Under the pieces are notes generated by a model. The model was given only the letters and a program-made list of their open reading frames with translations, did not search any database and was not told where the DNA came from. Made by a program: the position numbers and the translations under genes. This document shows positions 43,334 through 55,685 of a stretch of DNA of 64,000 nt, in pieces. Each line of letters begins with the position of its first letter. Within the stretch, counting starts at the first letter, position 1. Origin of the DNA: an uncultured Clostridia bacterium (lineage in GTDB: Bacteria; Bacillota; Clostridia; Lachnospirales; Anaerotignaceae); NCBI GenBank assembly GCA_944377425.1, contig CALWEX010000012.1:1-64000 (forward strand). The letters are read 5' to 3'.

Positions 43334-43531
43334 TTTTATTTGTCTACTATTTTAACAAATGAGTTATTAAAAAACACAGTATTTTATAAATTTTTTCACA
43401 CAACCGTCACATTGCAGTCATACTTAAAACAAAGAAGCGCTCTATAATTTTATCAAAAGACAGCAGTAACAAAGCTGTTTTTAATATAGATGTAGTGTGT
43501 TAATTATTTGTGTTTAGGAGTGGTACCGGAT

Positions 43532-45055
43532 ATGAAAGGACGGAAAAAAGTAATAGCCATTGTAGTAGCGGTGGTAGTTGTAGTAGCGGCAGTAGCTGTG
43601 TGGGCGGCAAGCAAAGACAGCCAAAAATCAGCACCAACGCCAGTTATGCCAACTACAACTAGCATGCAGAAAGGCGATATTGAGCAGAGAGTAACAGCAT
43701 CAGGCACAGTACAGGCAGCCGATGAGTACTCTATATTTATTGAGCTTTCACAAGAAGTAAAGGAAGTTTTTGCCGAGGTAGGCGATTATGTAGAGGAAGG
43801 CCAGCTTCTTGTTACATACGATATTGAAGACGATAAAAAAGAACTTCAAAACAAAGTAACATCGGCTCAAATAACACTTGATAACGCTAATCTTGAATTG
43901 AAAAGCATTGTAACTCCAGCTGAGGGCACAGAACTTTTAGACCTTAAAACAAAAGTTGTAAGTGCTGAGCAAGCATTAACAGAGGCTCAAAAAGCTATTG
44001 ATGACAACGAGGAAGACATAACAGAAGCTAAAGAAGATTTGGATTATTCAAAACAAATGCTGGAAATGGGCGGTATAAGCCAAAGTGAGTATGACACTGC
44101 TGAAAAAACATATAACGATTTGGTTAAAAATAAGGAAACTTTAGAGGATAACCTTGAATCAGCTCAGCTTGCCCTTGAAACAGCTAATCTTAATTTGGAA
44201 AATGGCCAGAATAGGCTTAATGACGCATCTACAATGAACAGTTACCAAAAACAGCTTAACACTGTTGAAACAGCTGAAATGAATTTAGCCGAAGCACAGG
44301 ATAATTTATCAAAGCTTACAGAATCTACATATAGCCCTATAAGCGGTACCATTATAGAAAGCAGCGCTGTTGAAGGCCAGATGCTTACAGACTCTACAGC
44401 TATAATGAAAATTGCTGATTTAACTAACCTTGACGTACTTGCTTATGTAAGTGAATACGATATAGCTAAAATTGCTGTTGGTCAGAATGTTGAGCTTACA
44501 TCAGACGGCATAGAAGATAAAATTTATCACGGCACAGTAACAAAAATAGAGCCTACAGCCGAAAGCCAAAGCACTATAAGCGGCAGTGAAACCGTTGTGC
44601 CAGTACTTGTGCACTTAACAGATAACGATGACCTTATAAAGCCGGGCATGGAGTTTGATATGGAATTTATAACTGTAAGCTTACAGGATGCTGACTATGT
44701 GCCTATTTCAGCCGTAATGGCAGATACTGAAAACGACGGACACTATGTATATGTTGTAAATGATGAGGGCGTTATTGAAAAACGCGATATTGAAATAGGT
44801 GTAAGCGATGATATGAATATACAGATTGTAAGTGGTCTTACAGCAAATGATGTTATAGTAGAAAGCCCGGATTCCAATATGGAAGCAGGCAAAAACCTTT
44901 CAGACTATGCCACAATGCAGAGCACACGTGATAGCTCTTCCGAACAATCGTCAGAAGGCGGTATGCTTGACGGTATGTTAGGCGGAGGTGGTGGTGCTCC
45001 TTCCGGCGGCGGCGGTATGCCTATGGGCGGCGGAGGAGGCGGCCCAAGAGGCTAA
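43532..45055 (+). CDS. Membrane fusion protein of a MacAB-like exporter
   Basis: This HlyD/MacA-type adaptor has 507 aa. I start it at ATG 43532 after TAGGAG. An N-terminal membrane helix (about 5-24) anchors it outside the cell. The barrel-sandwich halves flank a long coiled coil (about 110-260) rich in Glu, Ala and Leu heptads, with STYSPISGTIIESSAVEGQ (about 266-284) after it. A beta-barrel and membrane-proximal domain follow. The C-terminal tail is mostly Gly with Met and Pro, like other Gram-positive MacA homologues. It is followed at 26 bp by an ATPase, then a permease and a TolC-family protein. Confidence 0.9.
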   Translation: MKGRKKVIAIVVAVVVVVAAVAVWAASKDSQKSAPTPVMPTTTSMQKGDIEQRVTASGTVQAADEYSIFIELSQEVKEVFAEVGDYVEEGQLLVTYDIEDDKKELQNKVTSAQITLDNANLELKSIVTPAEGTELLDLKTKVVSAEQALTEAQKAIDDNEEDITEAKEDLDYSKQMLEMGGISQSEYDTAEKTYNDLVKNKETLEDNLESAQLALETANLNLENGQNRLNDASTMNSYQKQLNTVETAEMNLAEAQDNLSKLTESTYSPISGTIIESSAVEGQMLTDSTAIMKIADLTNLDVLAYVSEYDIAKIAVGQNVELTSDGIEDKIYHGTVTKIEPTAESQSTISGSETVVPVLVHLTDNDDLIKPGMEFDMEFITVSLQDADYVPISAVMADTENDGHYVYVVNDEGVIEKRDIEIGVSDDMNIQIVSGLTANDVIVESPDSNMEAGKNLSDYATMQSTRDSSSEQSSEGGMLDGMLGGGGGAPSGGGGMPMGGGGGGPRG

Positions 45056-45081
45056 ATAGTAAATGAAACGGGAGTGTTAAT

Positions 45082-45795
45082 ATGGCATTGCTGACATTAG
45101 ATAACATTTGTAAAAAATATAATCAAGGCGAGCTTGCTGTTATGGCTATTAAAAATATTAACCTAACTATAGAAAAAGGGGAGTTTGTGTCTATAATGGG
45201 CACCAGCGGCTCAGGCAAAAGTACTATGATGAATATTTTAGGCTGCCTTGATAGGCCAACAGAAGGACATTACTTTATTGAAGACGAAGATGTAGCGCGG
45301 TTTAATGAAAGCCGCCTTGCAGATATACGAAACAAGAAAATAGGCTTTGTTTTTCAGTCATTTAATCTTCTGCCAAAGCTTTCCTCGGTAGAAAATGTGG
45401 AACTGCCTATGGTTTACGCAGGTATAGGCAGAAAACAGCGCCGTGAAAGGGCTATAGAAGCCCTTACAAAAGTAGGTCTTGAAAAGCGAATTTATCATAA
45501 ACCAAATGAGCTTTCAGGTGGACAAAGGCAAAGAGTAGCCATAGCAAGGGCATTGGTCAACGACCCTTCTATATTAATGGCTGATGAGCCTACTGGTAAC
45601 CTTGATACAAAATCAACATATGAGGTAATGGGTATATTCCAGCAGCTTAACGATGAAGGCGTTACAGTTGTAATGGTTACCCATGAGCCTGATGTGGCGC
45701 AGTTTACAAAAAGAATTGTTGTTTTTAAAGACGGCGATATAATAAGCGATAAACCAGTTGAAAACCGTACATTAAGGGAGGGAATAGTGTCTTGA
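45082..45795 (+). CDS. MacB/LolD-type ABC ATPase
   Basis: This ATP-binding subunit has 237 aa. Walker A is GTSGSGKST (about 38-46), the signature is LSGGQRQRVAIARAL (about 142-156), and Walker B is ILMADEPTGNLD. The GFVFQSFNLLPKLSSVENVELPMVY Q-loop region is typical of the MacB/LolD/FtsE group. ATG 45082 follows ACGGGAG. Its end overlaps the permease TTG start by 4 bp. It powers a mechanotransmission-type exporter rather than a classical substrate channel. Confidence 0.93.
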   Translation: MALLTLDNICKKYNQGELAVMAIKNINLTIEKGEFVSIMGTSGSGKSTMMNILGCLDRPTEGHYFIEDEDVARFNESRLADIRNKKIGFVFQSFNLLPKLSSVENVELPMVYAGIGRKQRRERAIEALTKVGLEKRIYHKPNELSGGQRQRVAIARALVNDPSILMADEPTGNLDTKSTYEVMGIFQQLNDEGVTVVMVTHEPDVAQFTKRIVVFKDGDIISDKPVENRTLREGIVS

Positions 45796-47006
45796 ATATT
45801 TACGAGTGCATTAAATCGTCTTTCTTTAATGTGTTTTCAAATAAAATGAGAACGTTCCTTACAATGCTTGGCATTATAATAGGTATAGCAAGTGTTATTA
45901 TAATTGTTGCTATAGGAAACGGTTCTCAGGCAGCTATGGAGGAGGAGTTTGAAAGCTTTGGTACTGGTACACTCCAGGTAAGCCTTGTAAGCTCAAGAGA
46001 TATTGAAACACGCGACCTTCTTACAATGGACGATTACTATATGCTTAAAGAACTTGACGGCATAGAATATATTTCCCCTACATACTCTGGTTCCAATGCC
46101 TATGTAAAGCTTTTAGACCCTACGGAAACAAACAGAGCAAATATAACAGGCGCTACAGGCGACTATAAATATATAAATAACGATAATGTTTTGTACGGCA
46201 GATATATATCCGATAATGACGTTGAAATGCGAAATAATGTGTGTGTGATTCAGGATACAACGGCATTAAAGGTATTTGGCTATTGCAACGAAGACGTTAT
46301 AGGGCAGAAAATAAAAATTAAGTCTTGGAAAGGCACAACAAAGCTTACAGTTGTAGGTATTACAGAAAATACTGACTCATCTTCTTCAAATTACAGCGAT
46401 GAATATCCGGAAAGCATAGTTATGCCTATAACTACATGTATGAAAGTATTTACCGGTTCCAACTTAGGCGGTATATCAATAGTTTTAACTGACGCAAGCC
46501 AAAGTGAGATTATGCAGGAAAAAATAATCGCAGCTTTGGAAGACTTCCATGGTAACGAAGATAAGTATTATATTATGGATACTACTGATATGGTAGAATC
46601 CATTAACTCCATACTTTCGTATGTAACGCTGTTTATAAGCTTTGTTGCTGCAATTTCACTTTTGGTAGGCGGAATAGGCGTTATGAACATAATGATGGTT
46701 ACAGTTACCGAAAGAACGCGTGAGATAGGTATAAGAAAGGCTATAGGTGCCAAAAACCGAGATATACGCCTTCAGTTTATAACAGAGGCCATTATACTTA
46801 CCGGTATGGGCGGTATAAGCGGACTTATAATAGGCTATATAGGCTCAGTATTTGTAGGAAACCTTGTAGGAGTAGCGCCGGTTATGAGTATAACTGCAAT
46901 AGCAGGTGCTGTAGGTATATCAATGCTTATAGGTATAATTTTCGGTGTTGCTCCGGCTAATAAAGCTGCACTTTTAGACCCTATAGAAGCCCTTAGGTTT
47001 GAGTAA
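45792..47006 (+). CDS. MacB-type ABC permease
   Basis: This four-helix permease has 404 aa. It has a first helix near residues 20-42, a large extracytoplasmic MacB periplasmic-core domain (about 45-255) and three C-terminal FtsX helices. The VTERTREIGIRKAIGAKNRDIRLQFITEA segment (about 304-332) is the FtsX coupling helix. The TTG start overlaps the ATPase stop (TTGA). With the fusion protein it should expel a peptide, antibiotic or lipid-like substrate. The operon contains no immunity or biosynthesis gene to suggest which. Confidence 0.92.
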   Translation: MNIYECIKSSFFNVFSNKMRTFLTMLGIIIGIASVIIIVAIGNGSQAAMEEEFESFGTGTLQVSLVSSRDIETRDLLTMDDYYMLKELDGIEYISPTYSGSNAYVKLLDPTETNRANITGATGDYKYINNDNVLYGRYISDNDVEMRNNVCVIQDTTALKVFGYCNEDVIGQKIKIKSWKGTTKLTVVGITENTDSSSSNYSDEYPESIVMPITTCMKVFTGSNLGGISIVLTDASQSEIMQEKIIAALEDFHGNEDKYYIMDTTDMVESINSILSYVTLFISFVAAISLLVGGIGVMNIMMVTVTERTREIGIRKAIGAKNRDIRLQFITEAIILTGMGGISGLIIGYIGSVFVGNLVGVAPVMSITAIAGAVGISMLIGIIFGVAPANKAALLDPIEALRFE

Positions 47007-47019
47007 AGGATGTGAGTTA

Positions 47020-48177
47020 ATGAAAAAAAGATATGTTGCTGTTTTATCTGCTATAGTTACAGCATTTTCACCTGTGGCATCTTTCGGCGCAGATGAAAGC
47101 ACAGTATCTGAAACAACAGTAAGTGAGGAGCAAAACCAGCAAACCGACCTTACAGAGCAGTTCAGCACATTTATAACAAGCCAGTATGATGAGGAATTGG
47201 AAACTTTAACATTTGACGATGCTGTGGAAAAAGCTTTAAGAAACAATTCATCACTTAATAACCTTAAAGCAAGTATGGACCTTGCAGAAACACAGCTTGA
47301 AATACAATACCTTGAGGCATATTCTTCCGAAGACGGTTTTTCAGGCTTAATAAGCTTTTTAAACTCCCAAAGCAGTTATCAGAATAGTGAGCTTTCTATA
47401 GTTGCTCAGGAGGAAAGCGTTAAACATTCAATGAAACAATCGTATATTAATATTATTGAACTTCAAAGAAATATTGCTTTGTCGGAACTTGCTCTTAAAA
47501 ACGATGAGCTTAATTTGGCTCTTTCAAAAATAAAGCTCTCAAATGGCAAAATATCTCAAAGCGAGTATGATAATCTTAATCTTGCCTATAATACAGCTAA
47601 AGAACAGTTAGAAACACAAAAAGACACTCTTGAAATGGAGTATGTTTCTTTAAACATATTAATGGGCACTGACATAAATAAAAGATATAACTTTGTAATG
47701 GATGCTGTTTATGAGCCTTTTGAACTGGATATACCAGTTGAAAGCTATATTAACGGAAAAGTGGCTTTAAGCAACTCTGTAAGGCAGGCGGAAAAAAGCT
47801 ATGAAACAACAAAACAAACATCAAAGCTTACGCCTTTAAACAGCTCGGAGATAGGCGGCTATCAGTCGGCGCAAAATAGCTTAAACTCAGCTGAAATGAG
47901 CTATGAGGATGCCAAAGACAGCGTTTACGAGTCTTTGTACCAAAAATATAACTCCATTGTTCAGGAGGAAAAAGATTATACAGCAGGACTTGATGAGTTA
48001 AAACTGCTTCAGGATGAGTTTGAGAGAGTACAGGTTAAGTACCTCAACGGAAATGCCTCGTATTATGAGCTTTTAACAGCTCAGTATAATGTAGCTGAAA
48101 AAGAAAACACACTATTAAGCAGTGTTTACAGCCACATGCTTCTTTCTGAGGAGCTGACAAACACAGAATTAATGTAA
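47020..48177 (+). CDS. TolC-family (outer membrane efflux-like) protein
   Basis: This 385-aa secreted helical protein starts at ATG 47020, just after the permease stop. Residues 1-22 are a signal peptide (KKR, hydrophobic core, SFGA). The rest resembles OEP/TolC repeats: LTFDDAVEKALRNNSSLNNLKASMD (about 60-85), and a second half ending YLNGNASYYELLTAQYNVAEKENTLLSSVY, the typical TolC 'YxxGxxxxxxLLxAQ' signature. In diderms TolC spans the outer membrane. Everything else in this window looks monoderm, so here it is more likely a cell-wall or extracytoplasmic partner of the exporter. A terminator follows. Confidence 0.85.
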   Translation: MKKRYVAVLSAIVTAFSPVASFGADESTVSETTVSEEQNQQTDLTEQFSTFITSQYDEELETLTFDDAVEKALRNNSSLNNLKASMDLAETQLEIQYLEAYSSEDGFSGLISFLNSQSSYQNSELSIVAQEESVKHSMKQSYINIIELQRNIALSELALKNDELNLALSKIKLSNGKISQSEYDNLNLAYNTAKEQLETQKDTLEMEYVSLNILMGTDINKRYNFVMDAVYEPFELDIPVESYINGKVALSNSVRQAEKSYETTKQTSKLTPLNSSEIGGYQSAQNSLNSAEMSYEDAKDSVYESLYQKYNSIVQEEKDYTAGLDELKLLQDEFERVQVKYLNGNASYYELLTAQYNVAEKENTLLSSVYSHMLLSEELTNTELM

Positions 48178-49630: not shown

Positions 49631-50281
49631 TTGATTGAAAGAATAACGCTTAAAATGCAGGCGTATAACTACTTAAAAAAACAAATTATAGATGGCAAAC
49701 TTAAGGCGGATGAAATATATACAGAACAGGGCTTTGCTGAAATGCTTAATATTTCCCGTACGCCTGTAAGGGAAGCAGTACTTCAGCTTGCCCATGAAGA
49801 TTTTGTAACCATAAAACCAAACAAAGGTTTTATGGTTCGTGAATACAGCGGTAAAGATATAGACGAATATCTTCAGGTAAGATTGGCAATAGAGGGATTT
49901 TGCGGTATGTATGCCGTTGATACATCCGGAAGCCGGAAATGGCGTGAACTTGTGCAGACACTTGAATCTTATCTTGACCAAGAAAAACAGCTTATTGAAC
50001 GCTCTACCACATCACAGGAATTTATGAAGTGGGACTTTAATTTCCATTTGGCTATTGTAAGCTATGTAAATAACAGCCAAATGCTGAATATATTTAATGA
50101 TATGCGAAACAGAATAGACCGTATAGGCGTTAAAACGTTCTCAATAGGCGGTACTATAACAAATGCATATAAAGAGCATATGGAAATTTATGAGGCAATA
50201 AAGAGCGGAACAAGAAACGATATTTATATGGCTCTTGAAGCACACCTTGATAAATACCGTGAGGTATTAGATAAACTTTAA
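49631..50281 (+). CDS. GntR-family regulator (FCD type), first copy
   Basis: This FadR/FCD-type regulator has 216 aa. The winged HTH (about 5-72) includes TEQGFAEMLNISRTPVREAVLQL, and the all-helical FCD ligand-binding domain (about 78-212) has the metal-binding-type Asp/His positions in WDFNFHLAIVS. The start is TTG 49631, eight bases after AAGGAG. It lies 35 bp after coaBC and is followed by its own terminator. It is clearly a paralogue of the GntR gene 195 bp downstream; the two share most of the HTH. I see no TGGT-type operator directly before this copy. Confidence 0.9.
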   Translation: MIERITLKMQAYNYLKKQIIDGKLKADEIYTEQGFAEMLNISRTPVREAVLQLAHEDFVTIKPNKGFMVREYSGKDIDEYLQVRLAIEGFCGMYAVDTSGSRKWRELVQTLESYLDQEKQLIERSTTSQEFMKWDFNFHLAIVSYVNNSQMLNIFNDMRNRIDRIGVKTFSIGGTITNAYKEHMEIYEAIKSGTRNDIYMALEAHLDKYREVLDKL

Positions 50282-50284
50282 TAA

Positions 50285-50325
50285 AAAACGCATTATTAGT
50301 ATAAAGCTGATAAATGCGTTTTTTA
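50285..50325 (+). terminator. Terminator of first GntR gene
   Basis: AAAACGCAT pairs with ATGCGTTTT across about 20 nt, followed by further T's near 50322. Confidence 0.75.
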
Positions 50326-50408
50326 TTATTACGTGTTACGTGTAGTAGTTGGTTTATATATTACAAACATTGATTATTGTATTTATAAATAAATTTAACA
50401 CAGTATTT

Positions 50409-50463
50409 TTGTAAATAAATCATATTGCTAATTATAAACAAAACTGGTACACTACACACCAGT
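50409..50463 (+). promoter_or_regulatory. Promoter and operator of second GntR gene
   Basis: TTGTAA (50409-50414) and TATAAA (50433-50438) form a weak promoter. ACTGGT (50443-50448) and ACCAGT (50458-50463) are perfect inverted arms over the predicted start of transcription. The core TGGTACACTACACACCA matches the site before the dehydratase gene in 13 of 17 positions. Confidence 0.68.
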
Positions 50464-50475
50464 AGGAGGGGTATT

Positions 50476-51129
50476 ATGTTTGTAAAATCGACATTTAAAG
50501 AACAGGCTTATGAATACCTGCTTAATTTAATAGTTAATAATCAGCTTGAAGTAGATAAGGTGTATTCTGAAAGGCATTTTGCTGAAATAATGGGAATTTC
50601 AAGAACACCTGTAAGGGAAGCAATACTTCAGCTGCAAAAAGAAGGCTATATTGTAATACAGTCAAATAAAGGAATAAAAGTTAAAGAAATTTCACAAAAT
50701 GAGATGCACGAAATACTTCAAATGCGAATGGCTATAGAAGGCTTTTGTGCTCTTTATGCCGCCGAAAATATAACATCTCATAAAGGGCAGGAGCTTTGCC
50801 AGAGCATGCGCTATTTTTTGGATAGTGAAGAAGAAATGCTGAATAAAGAAGGCATACAGGAAGAATTTATAAAAAACGATTTGCGCTTTCACTTATCTAT
50901 TATAGATTTTTGCGGCAATAGCAGAATGAAAGAATCAATAGTTAATTTAAGAAATCAAATAAGCCGTATTGGCCTTCAGTCTTTTTATAAAAAAGACAGA
51001 ATTATACAAACACATAAAGAGCATTTAAGTATATATGAAGCCATAAAAAGTGGCAACGCAAAAATGGCATTTTTAGATATAAAAGAACATCTGCTTAGCT
51101 GTGAGGAAATTTTAAAAGCCCGAGAATAA
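50476..51129 (+). CDS. GntR-family regulator (FCD type), second copy
   Basis: This 217-aa FCD-type GntR regulator starts at ATG 50476 after AGGAGGGG. The HTH region SERHFAEIMGISRTPVREAILQLQKEG (about 34-60) is nearly that of the first copy, and the FCD domain keeps Asp/His in NDLRFHLSIID. An inverted repeat sits over its own transcription start and a close relative sits 20 bp before the enolase-superfamily gene downstream. This argues that it represses itself and that gene until a sugar acid or breakdown product binds. A terminator overlaps its stop codon. Confidence 0.92.
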   Translation: MFVKSTFKEQAYEYLLNLIVNNQLEVDKVYSERHFAEIMGISRTPVREAILQLQKEGYIVIQSNKGIKVKEISQNEMHEILQMRMAIEGFCALYAAENITSHKGQELCQSMRYFLDSEEEMLNKEGIQEEFIKNDLRFHLSIIDFCGNSRMKESIVNLRNQISRIGLQSFYKKDRIIQTHKEHLSIYEAIKSGNAKMAFLDIKEHLLSCEEILKARE

Positions 51130-51157
51130 ACAGGAATTAATATTTCGGGTATTTTTT
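51119..51157 (+). terminator. Terminator overlapping second GntR stop
   Basis: CCCGAGA (51119-51125) pairs with TTTCGGG (51143-51149), with one G-T pair, followed by TATTTTTT. Confidence 0.6.
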
Positions 51158-51163
51158 AACATA

Positions 51164-51184
51164 ACTGGTATGCCACATACCAAT
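51164..51184. promoter_or_regulatory. GntR operator before the dehydratase gene
   Basis: TGGTATG (51166-51172), CCA, CATACCA (51176-51182): perfect 7-bp arms. It is related to the site over the GntR promoter, and it lies just before AGGAGGAG of the dehydratase, so binding would block transcription. Confidence 0.7.
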
Positions 51185-51202
51185 ATTAAAGGAGGAGTTT
51201 AA

Positions 51203-52420
51203 ATGAAAATTACGGCTGTTGAAACAATTCAGCTTCCGGCACATCCAAGGCATTTGTGGGTTATGGTACATACTGATGAAGGCATAACGGGTATAGGCGA
51301 GGCTACAGACAAAGTTGAGCTTACAAAAACAGCGGTGCATAATTTCTGTGCCGAAATAATTTTAGGTGAAAATCCTTTAAATAACGAAAAGCTTTGGGCT
51401 ATGATGTATGATAGCGCTAACTACACAGGTTATATGGGTGCAGAAATGCGTGCAATGGGTGCTATAGATATGGCGCTTTGGGATATAAAGGGAAAAGCCG
51501 CAAACATGCCGGTTTATAACCTTTTAGGCGGCAAAACACAGGAAAGCCTTAAAGTATATAACACATGTATTAGTTACGGAAATATAAGAGATAGAGAATG
51601 GTTTATGGAAGATGCGGGAGAGCTGGCAAAAGACCTTTTAAAAAGCGGTATCACAGCTATGAAAATTTGGCCTTTAGACAGTCTTTCAACTAAATATAAT
51701 GGCCAGTATGTAACAAGAGAGGATATACGCCGGGGCCTTCTGCCATTTAAAAAGATACGTGACGCCGTAGGGGATAAAATGGAAATAGCCCTTGAGTGCC
51801 ACTCAAGATGGAATCTTCCAATGGCAGTACGTGTGGCAGAAGAAGTTGAGCAGTATGACCCTATGTGGTTTGAAGACCCTATACCAGTTGACAATATAAC
51901 ATGTTTTGCAAATTTAAGGAAAAAAACAAAGCTTCCTATACTTGCCAGCGAAAGACTTGTTACTAAATATCAGTTTAGAGAGCTTTTTGAAAAAGACGCC
52001 TGTGATATTGCCATGTTTGATGTAAGCTACTGCGGCGGAATTACAGAGTGCAAAAAAATAGCCGGTATGGCAGATGCTTACCACCTGCCAGTTACAACCC
52101 ATAACTGTGGTTCACCTGTTATGACTATGGTTGTTGCTCATCTTATGATAAGCTGTCCTAACACAAATGGTATTGAAACAGTGCGTTCACTTTATAAAAC
52201 ATTTGATATAACAGATAATGGAGTTGATATACGCGACGGACATATTTACTTAAGCGATAGGCCGGGTCTTGGCATTAATTTAAAAGACGAGGTTTATAAT
52301 GCCAAGGATACAATACATACAATTACTAAAGAAGCACGCCATGACCAGATGTTTGCTGTAACTGGTGACCCTTGGGCTCAGTCACCGGGCGATGATAAAG
52401 CAGGCGTTATACAGGCATAA
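51203..52420 (+). CDS. Enolase-superfamily (mandelate racemase group) sugar-acid dehydratase
   Basis: This member of the mandelate racemase/muconate lactonizing family has 405 aa. The N-terminal capping domain (about 1-115) is followed by a TIM-barrel. Likely active-site parts are AMKIWPL (about 150, base Lys), metal ligands in LECHSRWN (about 196), WFEDPI (about 220) and ASERL (about 246), and the His in TTHNCGSP (about 296). These fit an acid-sugar dehydratase; the first ligand position is Glu rather than the commoner Asp. ATG 51203 follows AAAGGAGGAG. It is a single-gene transcript under the GntR operator. Substrate candidates such as galactonate, mannonate or gluconate cannot be separated by eye. 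Confidence 0.87.
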   Translation: MKITAVETIQLPAHPRHLWVMVHTDEGITGIGEATDKVELTKTAVHNFCAEIILGENPLNNEKLWAMMYDSANYTGYMGAEMRAMGAIDMALWDIKGKAANMPVYNLLGGKTQESLKVYNTCISYGNIRDREWFMEDAGELAKDLLKSGITAMKIWPLDSLSTKYNGQYVTREDIRRGLLPFKKIRDAVGDKMEIALECHSRWNLPMAVRVAEEVEQYDPMWFEDPIPVDNITCFANLRKKTKLPILASERLVTKYQFRELFEKDACDIAMFDVSYCGGITECKKIAGMADAYHLPVTTHNCGSPVMTMVVAHLMISCPNTNGIETVRSLYKTFDITDNGVDIRDGHIYLSDRPGLGINLKDEVYNAKDTIHTITKEARHDQMFAVTGDPWAQSPGDDKAGVIQA

Positions 52421-52519: not shown

Positions 52520-52562
52520 AATATTAGTGGCAGTTGTTTGTGTGTTTTGGAGGGGATATTTA

Positions 52563-52763
52563 ATGGATGATAAAGAATTTAAAAGAATGAATTTATATAA
52601 CAATAGAGTAAATGAAGAAAACCGCGAAAAATATAATAAATATAAAGTAAATAAAGACGAAAAAGAACCTAAAACAGCTATTTGGTGGGCAATAATGCTT
52701 TTCTGCATTGTTTATGGCATACAGGTTGTATATAACAATATACTTCTTAACGGCGGTTTATAA
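52563..52763 (+). CDS. Small C-tail-anchored membrane protein, 66 aa
   Basis: I do not recognise this protein. ATG 52563 is preceded by GGAGGGG and by a good promoter; longer in-frame forms would start upstream of the promoter. The first 37 residues are highly charged (DDKEFKRMN, then RVNEENREKYNKYKVNKDEKE), followed by one membrane helix (about 39-59) with an aromatic start (AIWWAIMLF) and a short GGL end. This gives a cytoplasmic charged tail and one membrane span. It stands alone between two terminators. Similar tiny one-helix proteins often modulate membrane enzymes, but none is adjacent. Confidence 0.7.
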   Translation: MDDKEFKRMNLYNNRVNEENREKYNKYKVNKDEKEPKTAIWWAIMLFCIVYGIQVVYNNILLNGGL

Positions 52764-52790: not shown

Positions 52791-52830
52791 ATCGGGTTTA
52801 AAGCAATAAACTTTAAACCCGATTTTTTAG
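52791..52830. terminator. Bidirectional terminator
   Basis: ATCGGGTTTAAAG (52791-52803) pairs with CTTTAAACCCGAT (52811-52823); A-run before, T-run after. Confidence 0.88.
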
Positions 52831-53735
52831 TGTTTTTTTATGATACTTATTTGGCTTTTAATATTTTTAACTATGGCATTAAGAGGGTTTTCAAGGCCGG
52901 CTTTTATAAAGGCTTGTGTGTAGTTAAGTCCCGGCATGGCGTTTGCCTCGCAGAATACAAGCTCCCCGTTTTTATCAGTTAAAAAATCAACACTTCCCAG
53001 ATTAATATTAAGCAGTGCTGTTATGCTTTCGGCGGCTTTAATTTCTTCAGGCTTAGGAGTATAAGGAATTATTTCTCCGCCTTTTGCCACATTAGATAAA
53101 AAGCTTTCGCTGTTTTGGCGTATAAAAGAAACTATATACTTTCCGCCGCAGACTATAAAACGTATGTCGCGTCCTTTTGAAGAACGTATATATTTTTGAA
53201 GCATTGTGCTATCGCCATATTTTTCTTTAAATTCATTTGATTTTTTAATGGCTTCTTCCGCACTTTGGCAAAGCTCAACGCCTATACCCTTGCTGCCGTT
53301 AAGTATTTTAATTATACATGGAAAAGACATTTTTTCTTTTATAAACTCCGCTGTTGTATTTGGGCTTAAAAGCAATGAGTCTGGTATTTTAATATTAGGC
53401 AGGTTTTGGCTTATTTTAAGCATAGCCTTTAATTTGTCCCGGGCATCAATTATGCAGTCAGCGGTATTTATGCATAAAACGCCCATGCTTTCAAAATATC
53501 TTGTAACGTATAAGTTATAATCATTCATGTTGCCGAAGTATGCCGATATAACAGCATCAGGCAGAGGGCATTTTTGTCCGTTTACAGATATTTGACCATT
53601 AAATGGGTATGAAATATCTATTGTGTCTGTCATTACTTTTTTTAGTTTAATGCCGTTTTTCTCAAAGGCATCGCAGAAAATGTCTATGTCTTTAAGAGCG
53701 GCGCTTTTTTCACCTAAGAGCAGATAAATTTCCAT
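52827..53735 (-). CDS. RimK-type ATP-grasp ligase
   Basis: This ATP-grasp ligase has 302 aa. I start it at ATG 53735 on the minus strand, after GGAGGT; an ATG 33 nt earlier lacks a site. The central ATP-grasp part has FPCIIKILNGSKGIGVELCQSAEEA (about 143-167) and MLQKYIRSSKGRDIRFIVCGGKYI (about 182-205). The metal ligands are in NLGSVDFLTDKNGELVFCEANAMPG (about 253-277; Asp, Glu and Asn). The RimK/LysX group adds amino acids to a carboxylate (glutamate tails, LysW, coenzyme F420). The acceptor is unknown. It is divergent from a GH3-type acyl-amide ligase with about 130 bp between their starts. Confidence 0.87.
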   Translation of the reverse strand: MEIYLLLGEKSAALKDIDIFCDAFEKNGIKLKKVMTDTIDISYPFNGQISVNGQKCPLPDAVISAYFGNMNDYNLYVTRYFESMGVLCINTADCIIDARDKLKAMLKISQNLPNIKIPDSLLLSPNTTAEFIKEKMSFPCIIKILNGSKGIGVELCQSAEEAIKKSNEFKEKYGDSTMLQKYIRSSKGRDIRFIVCGGKYIVSFIRQNSESFLSNVAKGGEIIPYTPKPEEIKAAESITALLNINLGSVDFLTDKNGELVFCEANAMPGLNYTQAFIKAGLENPLNAIVKNIKSQISIIKKH

Positions 53736-53843
53736 AGTTAACCTCCATTTATAATATGATTTTATCATTATGAAACAGACAGTAAAGTTCTAAATTGTAT
53801 ACAATATGTATTTCCCGTTGCAAAGGGCAAATCTGTATTGTAT

Positions 53844-53849
53844 TATAAT
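53844..53849 (+). promoter_or_regulatory. -10 box of the GH3 gene
   Basis: A perfect TATAAT 20 bp before the TTG start. The -35 box is unclear: TTGCAA at 53818-53823 is 20 bp away. With so little space, the ribosome site AAAGGAG lies close to the 5' end of the message. Confidence 0.4.
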
Positions 53850-53869
53850 CGCAAAAGGAGTTGCTTATA

Positions 53870-55534
53870 TTGACTGCGACAAAAGAAATTTTAAATAAAA
53901 CAATAGAAAAAGGCAATAAGGGATTAGAGGCGCTTTTAAATGCTTCTTATGAAGGCTATGATGTAAATGAAAAACTGCTTTTTAAGCTTTTTCAGGAAAA
54001 TAAAAATACAGAATTTGGGAAGAAATACGGTTTTGATACAATTACAACTGTTGAGGAGTATCAAAAAAGAGTGCCTTTAAGCGCTTACAGCGACTATGAG
54101 GAATATATAAACCGAATTGAAAACGGCGAAAAAAACATAATTACATCACGAGATATAGAGCACTTTGCTTTAAGTTCCGGCAGCAGCGGAAAACCAAAAA
54201 AAGTGCCTATGTGCCGTGAAGCAGCAGATTTATTTGCTCTTTATACCCATGGGGCGTGCTTTGCCGTAATGGATAGGGAATTAAAAAAAAGCTGGGTTAA
54301 GGGCAGAGGTGTTTCGTTAACTGAAATACGGTTTAAAACACAAGACAACGGTTTTACATACGGCGCCGTTTCAGGTAAAGTACGTGAAAGAAACAAAGCC
54401 TATGAAAATTATGTTTATACTACACCTCTTTGTGTTACCTATCCAAAGCATGATATGGATTTTATGTACATGCATTTAAGGTTTGCCCTTATGGAAAAGG
54501 ATTTATCTTATATTACATGTACATTTATGACAGCGGCTTATGATATAATGCGGTATTTTGAAAACAACTGGCAAATGCTTGTTGAGGACATAAAAAACGG
54601 TACAATTAACGAAAAAATTAATGTGCCAAAAAGTGTAAAAAATGAGCTGACACTTGAAAAAATGCCTCAAAGAGCAGAAGAAATAGAAAAAGAATGTCTA
54701 AAAGGCTTTGAGGGCATTATAAAACGCATTTGGCCTAATGTTGCTTTTGTATTTGGTATAGGCAGTGAAAGCTTTAAAATTTATACCGAAAGGCTAAGAT
54801 ATTTTTTAGGCGGCATAAAGGTACACTACAGCGTTTTTTCAGCGTCGGAAGGTATATTTGCCTGCCCTGTAGAGTCCGAAAGCGACGAAATGGTGCTTAT
54901 ACCTTTTAGTGCGTTTTATGAGTTTAAAGACATTAAAACAGGTGAAATTGTTACACTGGATAAAGTTGTTAAAGGCAGACGTTATGAGTTTATAATAACC
55001 AATTTATCGGGATTTTACCGCTATAGAATGATGGATATTGTGGAAGTAACGGGCTTTTATAATAAACTGCCTAAAATACGTTTTGTTTACAGACTTAATC
55101 AGGTACTTAACATAGCTGGTGAAAAAACAAACGACAGCACAATGAAGGACGTTATTATTAATTTTGAGAAAAAAACAGGCATTAAAACAAAGGAATATAC
55201 AGTTTATGCCGATAAAAATTCATCACCAGGCAGGTATGTGGTTTTTGCCGAGTACGACAAAGAAATATCAGCAGAAAACGCCGAAAAATACTCTTCGGTT
55301 ATAGAAAAAATACTTTGTGGTTTTAACTCGTCTTATGCCGAAAAAATACGCCTTGGAAAGCTTCAAAGTCTTGTACTTGTACCTTTGCAGCAGGGTTCAT
55401 ACAGCGACTATGTTAAAATGATGAGTAAAAAAGGTGTTTCTGTAAACCAGTTAAAGCCGGTTAGAGTAGCCGACAGCGACGAAAAGGCCGAATTTTTTAT
55501 AAACCATATGGCCCATGGCCATAGTTTTGCTTAA
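53870..55534 (+). CDS. GH3-family acyl-acid amido synthetase-like protein
   Basis: This 554-aa protein belongs to the GH3 (auxin-responsive) branch of adenylate-forming enzymes. The start is TTG 53870, nine bases after AAAGGAG. The ATP motif I is LSSGSSGKPKKVPM (about 103-116), motif II is YSVFSASEGIFACP (about 319-332), and motif III YRYRMMDIVEVTGF with the later LNQVLNIAGEKTND (about 422-435) matches the GH3 C-terminal hinge. Plant GH3 enzymes join jasmonate, auxin or benzoates to amino acids. Bacterial members have few known substrates. The length is in the family range. It is divergent from an ATP-grasp ligase gene, which also forms amide bonds. Confidence 0.85.
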   Translation: MTATKEILNKTIEKGNKGLEALLNASYEGYDVNEKLLFKLFQENKNTEFGKKYGFDTITTVEEYQKRVPLSAYSDYEEYINRIENGEKNIITSRDIEHFALSSGSSGKPKKVPMCREAADLFALYTHGACFAVMDRELKKSWVKGRGVSLTEIRFKTQDNGFTYGAVSGKVRERNKAYENYVYTTPLCVTYPKHDMDFMYMHLRFALMEKDLSYITCTFMTAAYDIMRYFENNWQMLVEDIKNGTINEKINVPKSVKNELTLEKMPQRAEEIEKECLKGFEGIIKRIWPNVAFVFGIGSESFKIYTERLRYFLGGIKVHYSVFSASEGIFACPVESESDEMVLIPFSAFYEFKDIKTGEIVTLDKVVKGRRYEFIITNLSGFYRYRMMDIVEVTGFYNKLPKIRFVYRLNQVLNIAGEKTNDSTMKDVIINFEKKTGIKTKEYTVYADKNSSPGRYVVFAEYDKEISAENAEKYSSVIEKILCGFNSSYAEKIRLGKLQSLVLVPLQQGSYSDYVKMMSKKGVSVNQLKPVRVADSDEKAEFFINHMAHGHSFA

Positions 55535-55656: not shown

Positions 55657-55685
55657 GCTCCGAATTATTTTCGGAGCTTTTTTGT
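55657..55685 (+). terminator. preQ1-controlled terminator
   Basis: GCTCCGAA (55657-55664) pairs with TTCGGAGC (55670-55677) and is followed by six T's. It stands between the preQ1 aptamer and queD. Confidence 0.88.

Follow-up and report, generated by a model that had tools for sequence, protein, structure and literature searches.

A conserved divergent GH3–RimK gene pair in an uncultured Anaerotignaceae bacterium, proposed as a carrier-free amide-conjugate module

In a 64,000-nucleotide stretch (hereafter, the window) of contig CALWEX010000012.1, assembly GCA_944377425.1, from an uncultured Clostridia bacterium of the family Anaerotignaceae, a gene for a GH3-family acyl-acid amido synthetase stands back to back with a gene for a RimK-type ATP-grasp ligase. 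The two genes tend to be present or absent together in the family, and related GH3 and RimK genes are clustered or fused elsewhere in Bacteria and Archaea. We propose, at somewhat better than even confidence, that GH3 and RimK constitute a two-enzyme, carrier-free amide-conjugate module, a reduced relative of larger exporter-bearing clusters.

Two intact enzymes around a short intergenic region

The mechanically called open reading frames (ORFs) start at 53861 (GH3) and 53768 (RimK). Ribosome-binding sites and an alignment of congeners led us to revise these to a TTG at 53870 and an ATG at 53735, which widens the intergenic gap from 92 to 134 bp:

52827 to 53735, minus strand: RimK-type ATP-grasp ligase, 302 amino acids, ATG start, of the GH3-linked clade (PF08443, TIGR00768, AlphaFold2 model)
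53736 to 53869, no strand: shared divergent promoter region, 134 bp (sequence; block conserved within the genus)
53870 to 55534, plus strand: GH3-family acyl-acid amido synthetase, 554 amino acids, TTG start, of the GH3A type of the larger clusters (Pfam, AlphaFold2 model, ribosome-binding site, alignment, tree)

The GH3 ORF is intact and transcribed away from RimK. Its product exceeds the Pfam cut-off (23.6 bits each) for all three GH3 domains, N (254.9 bits), M (72.4 bits) and C (69.1 bits), and its best relative by sequence among solved structures is a grape auxin-conjugating GH3 (E 1.2e-54). The AlphaFold2 model (pLDDT 90.1) superposes on Arabidopsis JAR1 (4epl) over 525 residues at 3.4 A (Z 43.3), reproducing the two-domain GH3 fold, and the first 16 structural matches are plant GH3s throughout. 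The catalytic elements of the family are all in place:

54173 to 54202, plus strand: nucleotide motif I, SSGSSGKPKK (S103, G104 and K110 invariant in 33 GH3s)
54836 to 54850, plus strand: nucleotide motif II, FSASE (E327 invariant in 33 GH3s)
55016 to 55036, plus strand: nucleotide motif III, YRYRMMD (R384, Y385 and D389 invariant in 33 GH3s)
55124 to 55126, plus strand: hinge lysine K419, in GEKT (invariant in 33 GH3s), whose role we take to be catalytic from the plant GH3 literature

The RimK-type protein passes both PF08443 (88.9 bits) and the TIGR00768 subfamily (152.5 bits, cut-off 143.4), while the pre-ATP-grasp domain PF18030 reaches 25.3 bits against a cut-off of 26.4. Its model (pLDDT 94.2) aligns to RimK over residues 1–300, with a Z of 30.8 to RimK 5zct. 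The protein nevertheless falls below the equivalogs for S6 glutamate ligase (NF007764, 90.3 bits against 331), LysX (90.6 against 275.6), MptN (80.3 against 350) and CofF (52.2 against 300). The preliminary description, which had seen an intact GH3 with three adenylation motifs, divergent from a RimK-type ligase across a short intergenic region, is thus borne out on both counts, with both frames open and in their places.

Alignments show that both proteins retain the residues invariant across their respective families. Relative to congener G002, the ratio of non-synonymous to synonymous substitution rates (dN/dS) is 0.10 and 0.11 for the GH3/RimK pair, indicating purifying selection on both, and 0.04–0.07 for the neighbouring QueC, QueE and CoaBC. 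The copy of the window GH3 in G004 is 71% identical. The window genome holds a single GH3 and a single RimK of the GH3-linked type.

The two genes occur together or not at all in most family genomes

We followed the pair through samples of 58 genomes of the family (GTDB), 246 of the order and 398 of the phylum, with profiles (A1 and A2) that were made from the pair together with its closest relatives and therefore favour it in their scores. Strong full-length GH3s occur in nine of the 58 family genomes (G000–G004, G009, G015, G017 and G019), that of G001 being split over two contig pieces, and three further genomes give weak matches of 55–61 bits. RimK of the pair type (368–541 bits, the next-best RimK-like match in the family scoring 49) occurs in eight genomes, all with a close GH3; these are the GH3 set minus G015, whose GH3 shows 34% identity. 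With weak GH3 matches scored as absent, the two genes are jointly present or jointly absent in 57 of the 58 genomes. In G005, from the genus of the window, both are missing; the que-MATE genes are kept there and the upstream neighbours differ.

GH3 and RimK are divergent neighbours in seven of the eight RimK-bearing genomes, so that their adjacency is not peculiar to the window genome. Two of the seven, G017 and G019, belong to other genera and keep the divergent pair among flanking genes unlike those of the window. In the order sample, RimK scores above 400 bits in five of 246 genomes, all with a divergent GH3 (the next score is 159 bits), and in the phylum sample the window genome alone exceeds 172 bits. 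None of 13 GH3 matches fetched from other phylum-sample genomes has a RimK within about 1.5 kb, and within the order 24 unlinked RimK loci (L124–L147) all lack a GH3 within 1.5 kb. The expectation that the pair would be conserved across Clostridia therefore holds for one family, including two other genera, with rearranged forms elsewhere; it does not hold generally, as GH3 itself is rare in the phylum (11 of 398 genomes).

These distributions bear on the simplest alternative, that the genes are unrelated neighbours, GH3 making a conjugate of its own and RimK glutamylating a protein such as ribosomal S6. The nearness of the RimK fold to true RimK would suit such an arrangement, as would G009, where the genes are unlinked. 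Joint presence and absence, the survival of the divergent pair through relocation in G017 and G019, the low score on the S6 ligase equivalog and the clusters and fusions described below all argue against it, and we regard it as improbable.

A separate observation concerns G017, where genes for an MBOAT O-acyltransferase and a GDSL hydrolase directly follow GH3 on the same strand (L018, 10462–12748).

Larger clusters and fusions elsewhere

To look beyond the family, we took the best 80 of at least 469 GH3 relatives from one scan of named genomes, and counted a gene as RimK-like at 60 bits or more. ORFs were called mechanically, longest first, and real GH3s can be masked by longer overlapping frames (probably L044, L090 and the A-type GH3 of L055 and L201), making the cluster counts lower bounds; the counts of RimK beside GH3 are raw numbers. 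A RimK-like gene lies on the same locus in at least 21 of the 80. Two of these loci (L023 and L025) are the pair itself and seven are from Acetobacterium or near kin (L026–L030, L033 and L041). An ABC (ATP-binding cassette) exporter family is found at 16 of the 21 loci with RimK, compared with 11 of the 59 without.

The clusters occur in Acetobacterium, Lachnospiraceae, Monoglobus, Methanobrevibacter and Methanomethylophilaceae, usually with paired ABC exporters and often with STAS/SpoIIE regulators. Their gene orders are as follows:

Acetobacterium: STAS-GH3B-GH3A-ABC-ABC-RimK-RimK
Lachnospiraceae type: GH3A-RimK-ABC-ABC-(RimK::GH3B fusion)
Monoglobus: ABC-ABC-ATP-grasp-RimK-GH3-GH3
Methanobrevibacter: RimK-GH3B-RimK-ABC-ABC-STAS-GH3A
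Methanomethylophilaceae: RimK-GH3B-RimK-ABC

In four Lachnospiraceae-type genomes (G272, G273, G274 and G280) RimK and GH3 are joined in one protein of 842–854 amino acids, and a Pfam scan of one of them confirmed RimK and the GH3 N, M and C domains. In two genomes of this type the fusion is followed by STAS and an f4-family protein, which is SpoIIE in the one scanned. The fusion loci are:

L194, 13399–15951
L195, 11145–13709
L196, 2873–5419
L197, 7335–9863

The Methanobrevibacter cluster lies just downstream of a non-ribosomal peptide synthetase (NRPS) with a reductase-type domain; at L199 (348–10513) this NRPS has two adenylation domains, carries the reductase-type domain at its C-terminus and directly precedes RimK-GH3-RimK.

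Other GH3 loci carry further gene sets. Three methanogen loci have a partner-switching type of module: STAS is present in L053 and L058, free HATPase_c_2 and SpoIIE-family genes in L058 and L062, and L058 also encodes a MATE protein fused to a histidine-kinase-like ATPase domain. In L034, L037, L042 and L088, where no RimK was found, a CapA/PGA_cap-type family is present (Pfam shown for L034) and possibly stands in for the second ligase.

The RimK of the pair belongs to a GH3-linked clade

A first RimK tree was restricted to chosen loci and to rows of at least 60 bits and at least 150 profile positions. It places all sampled GH3-linked RimKs, archaeal ones included, on one side of a single branch (37 against 31 rows, support 100/96). 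A second tree, from which background rows below 100 bits and the near-duplicate loci L014, L027, L029, L033 and L076 were also removed and to which three outsiders were added, again separates GH3-linked from unlinked Bacillota RimKs (29 against 26 rows, 99/96). The RimKs of the pair form a clade (100/97), sister to two Acetobacterium cluster RimKs (97/87 in the first tree and 98/95 in the second).

On the GH3 side, a quick tree search supported by the SH-like approximate likelihood ratio test (SH-aLRT) alone recovers the GH3s of the pair as a single clade (SH-aLRT 100) inside the A type, with the GH3B paralogues, fused ones included, standing apart. Two loci labelled 'noRimK' in this tree, L028 and L041, do carry RimKs, which leaves the pair clade unaffected.

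Comparison with known enzymes

Plant GH3s such as JAR1, GH3.12/PBS3 and GH3.6 share with the window GH3 the three Pfam domains, the adenylation motifs and the two-domain fold. Identity over the best structural alignments is, however, 23–28%, and neither acyl nor amino acid specificity can be read across; in motif III the window protein has MMD where plant GH3s have G before D. We know of no RimK partner in the plant GH3 pathway. After the plant GH3s, the next structural neighbours include the PaaK-like amide ligases NatL2, AjiA1 and ClxA (Z 17.7–18.7). These also carry out carrier-free acyl-adenylate amide synthesis, although they belong to a family other than GH3 and, to our knowledge, have no RimK partner.

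The closest bacterial precedent is the OlsH/OlsI ornithine lipid pathway of Singulisphaera acidiphila, in which OlsH, a GH3-type enzyme, makes an N-acyl amino acid (PMC12493201, available text). According to the same text, the serine of motif I, which the window GH3 conserves, is essential in OlsH, and more than 7500 bacterial hits are reported. The preliminary description had GH3 enzymes as best known from plants; they are in fact widespread in bacteria and, with the function of OlsH proven, a bacterial GH3 is unsurprising. The proof for OlsH also establishes N-acyl amino acids as products within reach of a bacterial GH3-like enzyme.

This precedent supports an alternative in which the pair serves a lipid head-group route, GH3 attaching a fatty acyl group to an amino acid such as ornithine and RimK extending the head group to give an N-acyl-dipeptide membrane lipid. 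OlsH uses ATP and free fatty acid to produce N-acyl ornithine, and its authors expect other N-acyl amino acids from other bacterial GH3s (PMC12493201, available text). The window GH3 is nevertheless not OlsH, scoring 70.6 bits on the NCBIfam model NF052613 against 620. Its partner is a RimK ligase rather than the OlsI acyltransferase, and no domain like that of the olsI hydrolase, which shares the operon of olsH, was found among the window neighbours scanned. Moreover, related clusters are present in methanogenic archaea, whose membranes are not known to be built from fatty acids. We consider the lipid route unlikely.

The window RimK shares the ATP-grasp fold and the subfamily score with RimK, LysX/ArgX, MptN, CofF and RIMKLB, and differs from the named enzymes in falling under the equivalog cut-offs shown and in its separate GH3-linked clade. 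RIMKLB joins glutamate to N-acetylaspartate or citrate, making N-acetylaspartylglutamate or beta-citrylglutamate, and so offers a precedent for RimK-type enzymes acting on N-acyl amino acids (PMC7907349, available text). A further parallel concerns the surroundings of the genes. In Methanobrevibacter ruminantium M1, NRPS clusters set serine phosphatases, an anti-sigma factor antagonist and an exporter round the peptide-making enzyme, and related modules flank a number of GH3 loci; in M1, however, an NRPS containing carrier domains takes the place of GH3 and RimK, and the available text names no GH3 (PMC2812497).

Proposed function

GH3 enzymes form an acyl-AMP and then an amide; RimK enzymes form an acyl-phosphate and then an amide, usually with glutamate. 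Applied to the pair, GH3 would join a free carboxylic acid to an amino acid through an acyl-adenylate, converting ATP to AMP and pyrophosphate and releasing an N-acyl amino acid. RimK would then phosphorylate a carboxylate, with conversion of ATP to ADP and phosphate, and couple it to the amine of another amino acid; in line with the RimK family, that amino acid is probably glutamate-like. The joint product would carry two amide bonds, and its simplest form, by analogy with the extension of N-acetylaspartate by RIMKLB, would be acyl-aa1-aa2. We infer that both enzymes act on one product, and likewise the order of steps, the substrates and any export. The exporter genes of the related clusters suggest a secreted product; that of the window might leave through another transporter or be kept inside the cell.

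The recurrence of the partnership in larger clusters of acetogens, gut Clostridia and methanogenic archaea makes a small conjugate the probable outcome. The preliminary description had suggested that the enzymes could together build or modify an amino-acid conjugate; the conserved pair, its joint presence and absence and the clusters and fusions point most naturally to a shared amide conjugate. Its picture of a free-standing minimal system fares less well, the window locus being better seen as the reduced form of a larger system with exporters: compared with a full cluster it lacks the second GH3, the second RimK and the ABC exporter pair, and no pair of transmembrane and nucleotide-binding exporter subunits was found among the neighbours scanned.

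Several observations weigh against the proposed module. No RimK lies within reach in 59 of the 80 GH3 loci, and the two genes are on different contigs in G009. Lacking the additional cluster genes, the window locus may act differently from the full clusters. The fused GH3 is the B paralogue whereas that of the window is of A type, so the fusions are indirect evidence for the pair. Finally, the background of the RimK trees was confined to Bacillota and picked by similarity to the pair, and a RimK of the GH3-linked clade without GH3 may exist outside it.

Promoter region and neighbouring genes

The intergenic region and the ends of the two genes hold the following candidate regulatory features:

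53794 to 53805, no strand: candidate operator, perfect palindrome of 12 bp (ATTGTATACAAT) flanked by the two promoter-like sites
53818 to 53846, plus strand: GH3 promoter-like site, TTGCAA-17-TATTAT (consensus scan alone)
53759 to 53786, minus strand: RimK promoter-like site, TTTACT-16-TAAAAT (consensus scan alone; hexamers mostly retained in the genus)
52791 to 52823, no strand: terminator-like hairpin 3' of RimK, with a T-tract on either strand
55657 to 55677, plus strand: terminator-like hairpin in the GH3-queD interval

The palindrome ATTGTATACAAT is exact in four of five aligned genus members and degraded in G003. The window contains a single copy; when up to one mismatch is allowed, 38 of 100 shuffles contain at least one. 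With as many as three mismatches allowed, the 21-bp core has one match in the genome. As shuffles of window size can yield a match by chance, it is the conservation of the palindrome and not its presence that counts as evidence for a candidate operator.

Genes for a tandem pair of GntR/FCD regulators and, after them, for an enolase-superfamily sugar-acid dehydratase that scores under all equivalog cut-offs shown occupy 49631–52420; these genes are conserved in G001 and G002 and were not found in the G004 stretch. Control of the pair by the two regulators, 2–4 kb upstream, is not supported: the only ATTGTATACAAT of the window lies between GH3 and RimK, the repeat before the enolase gene differs (TGGTAT/ATACCA, by eye), and G004 retains the palindrome while the regulators are not in the stretch fetched. 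Convergent with RimK, a 67-residue protein (52560–52763) with one apparent membrane segment is kept in G001, G002 and G004; a Pfam scan gave no match for it. Further upstream, an HlyD-type adaptor, an ABC ATPase, a MacB/FtsX permease and an outer-membrane-efflux (OEP/TolC-type) protein are encoded consecutively (43508–48177); in a genome of monoderm Clostridia such a tripartite pump set is unusual.

Downstream, the queD-queE-folE-queC genes raise the alternative of cofactor tailoring, the pair conjugating a pterin or deazaguanine. In the window 169 bp separate GH3 from the downstream queD, and in the congeners G002, G003 and G004 GH3 also lies just upstream of queD. Among the relatives of RimK, MptN and CofF add glutamate to pterin and deazaflavin cofactors. 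Yet the hairpin at 55657–55677 stands before queD, which argues that GH3 is not part of the que operon; G019 and G009 have the pair with no match to the QueD of the window, G005 has que without the pair, and the MptN and CofF models score far under cut-off. We thus rejected this link as the principal explanation and judge it very improbable.

The two transporters beyond these genes fared no better as members of the system. We treat the AEC permease ('auxin efflux carrier') downstream of a relative of auxin conjugases as a coincidence of names; the permease remains next to the que genes and does not adjoin the pair in G017 or G019. The earlier statement that there is no adjacent exporter is correct for the genes directly next to the pair, although 2.6 kb downstream, past the queuosine genes, there is a MATE exporter; the case for its membership is weak, since G005 retains it while lacking the pair and it was not found beside que or GH3 in G003.

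Implications

Open-licence PMC text yielded no description of GH3–RimK clusters or fusions (most matches being judged from listings), and the conjugate pathway is apparently undescribed. More tentatively, and at somewhat less than even odds, acetogens, gut Clostridia and methanogenic archaea may share a class of acyl-peptide conjugates defined by GH3 and RimK together. These conjugates would be carrier-free and exported, and their synthesis would need neither NRPS nor ribosome. The system would often be controlled by STAS/SpoIIE and would have spread between Bacteria and Archaea, and the window would hold its smallest working form.

Bacterial GH3s are numerous and nearly all lack an assigned role, and a conserved enzyme partner narrows the question of what they make. 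With RimK as neighbour, the product is predicted to contain a second amide bond, probably of glutamate type, that metabolomics could look for, and the clusters in culturable Acetobacterium and Methanobrevibacter offer tractable hosts. Acetogens and methanogens are competitors for hydrogen in guts, and a conjugate common to both could be a signal, an inhibitor or a metal ligand.

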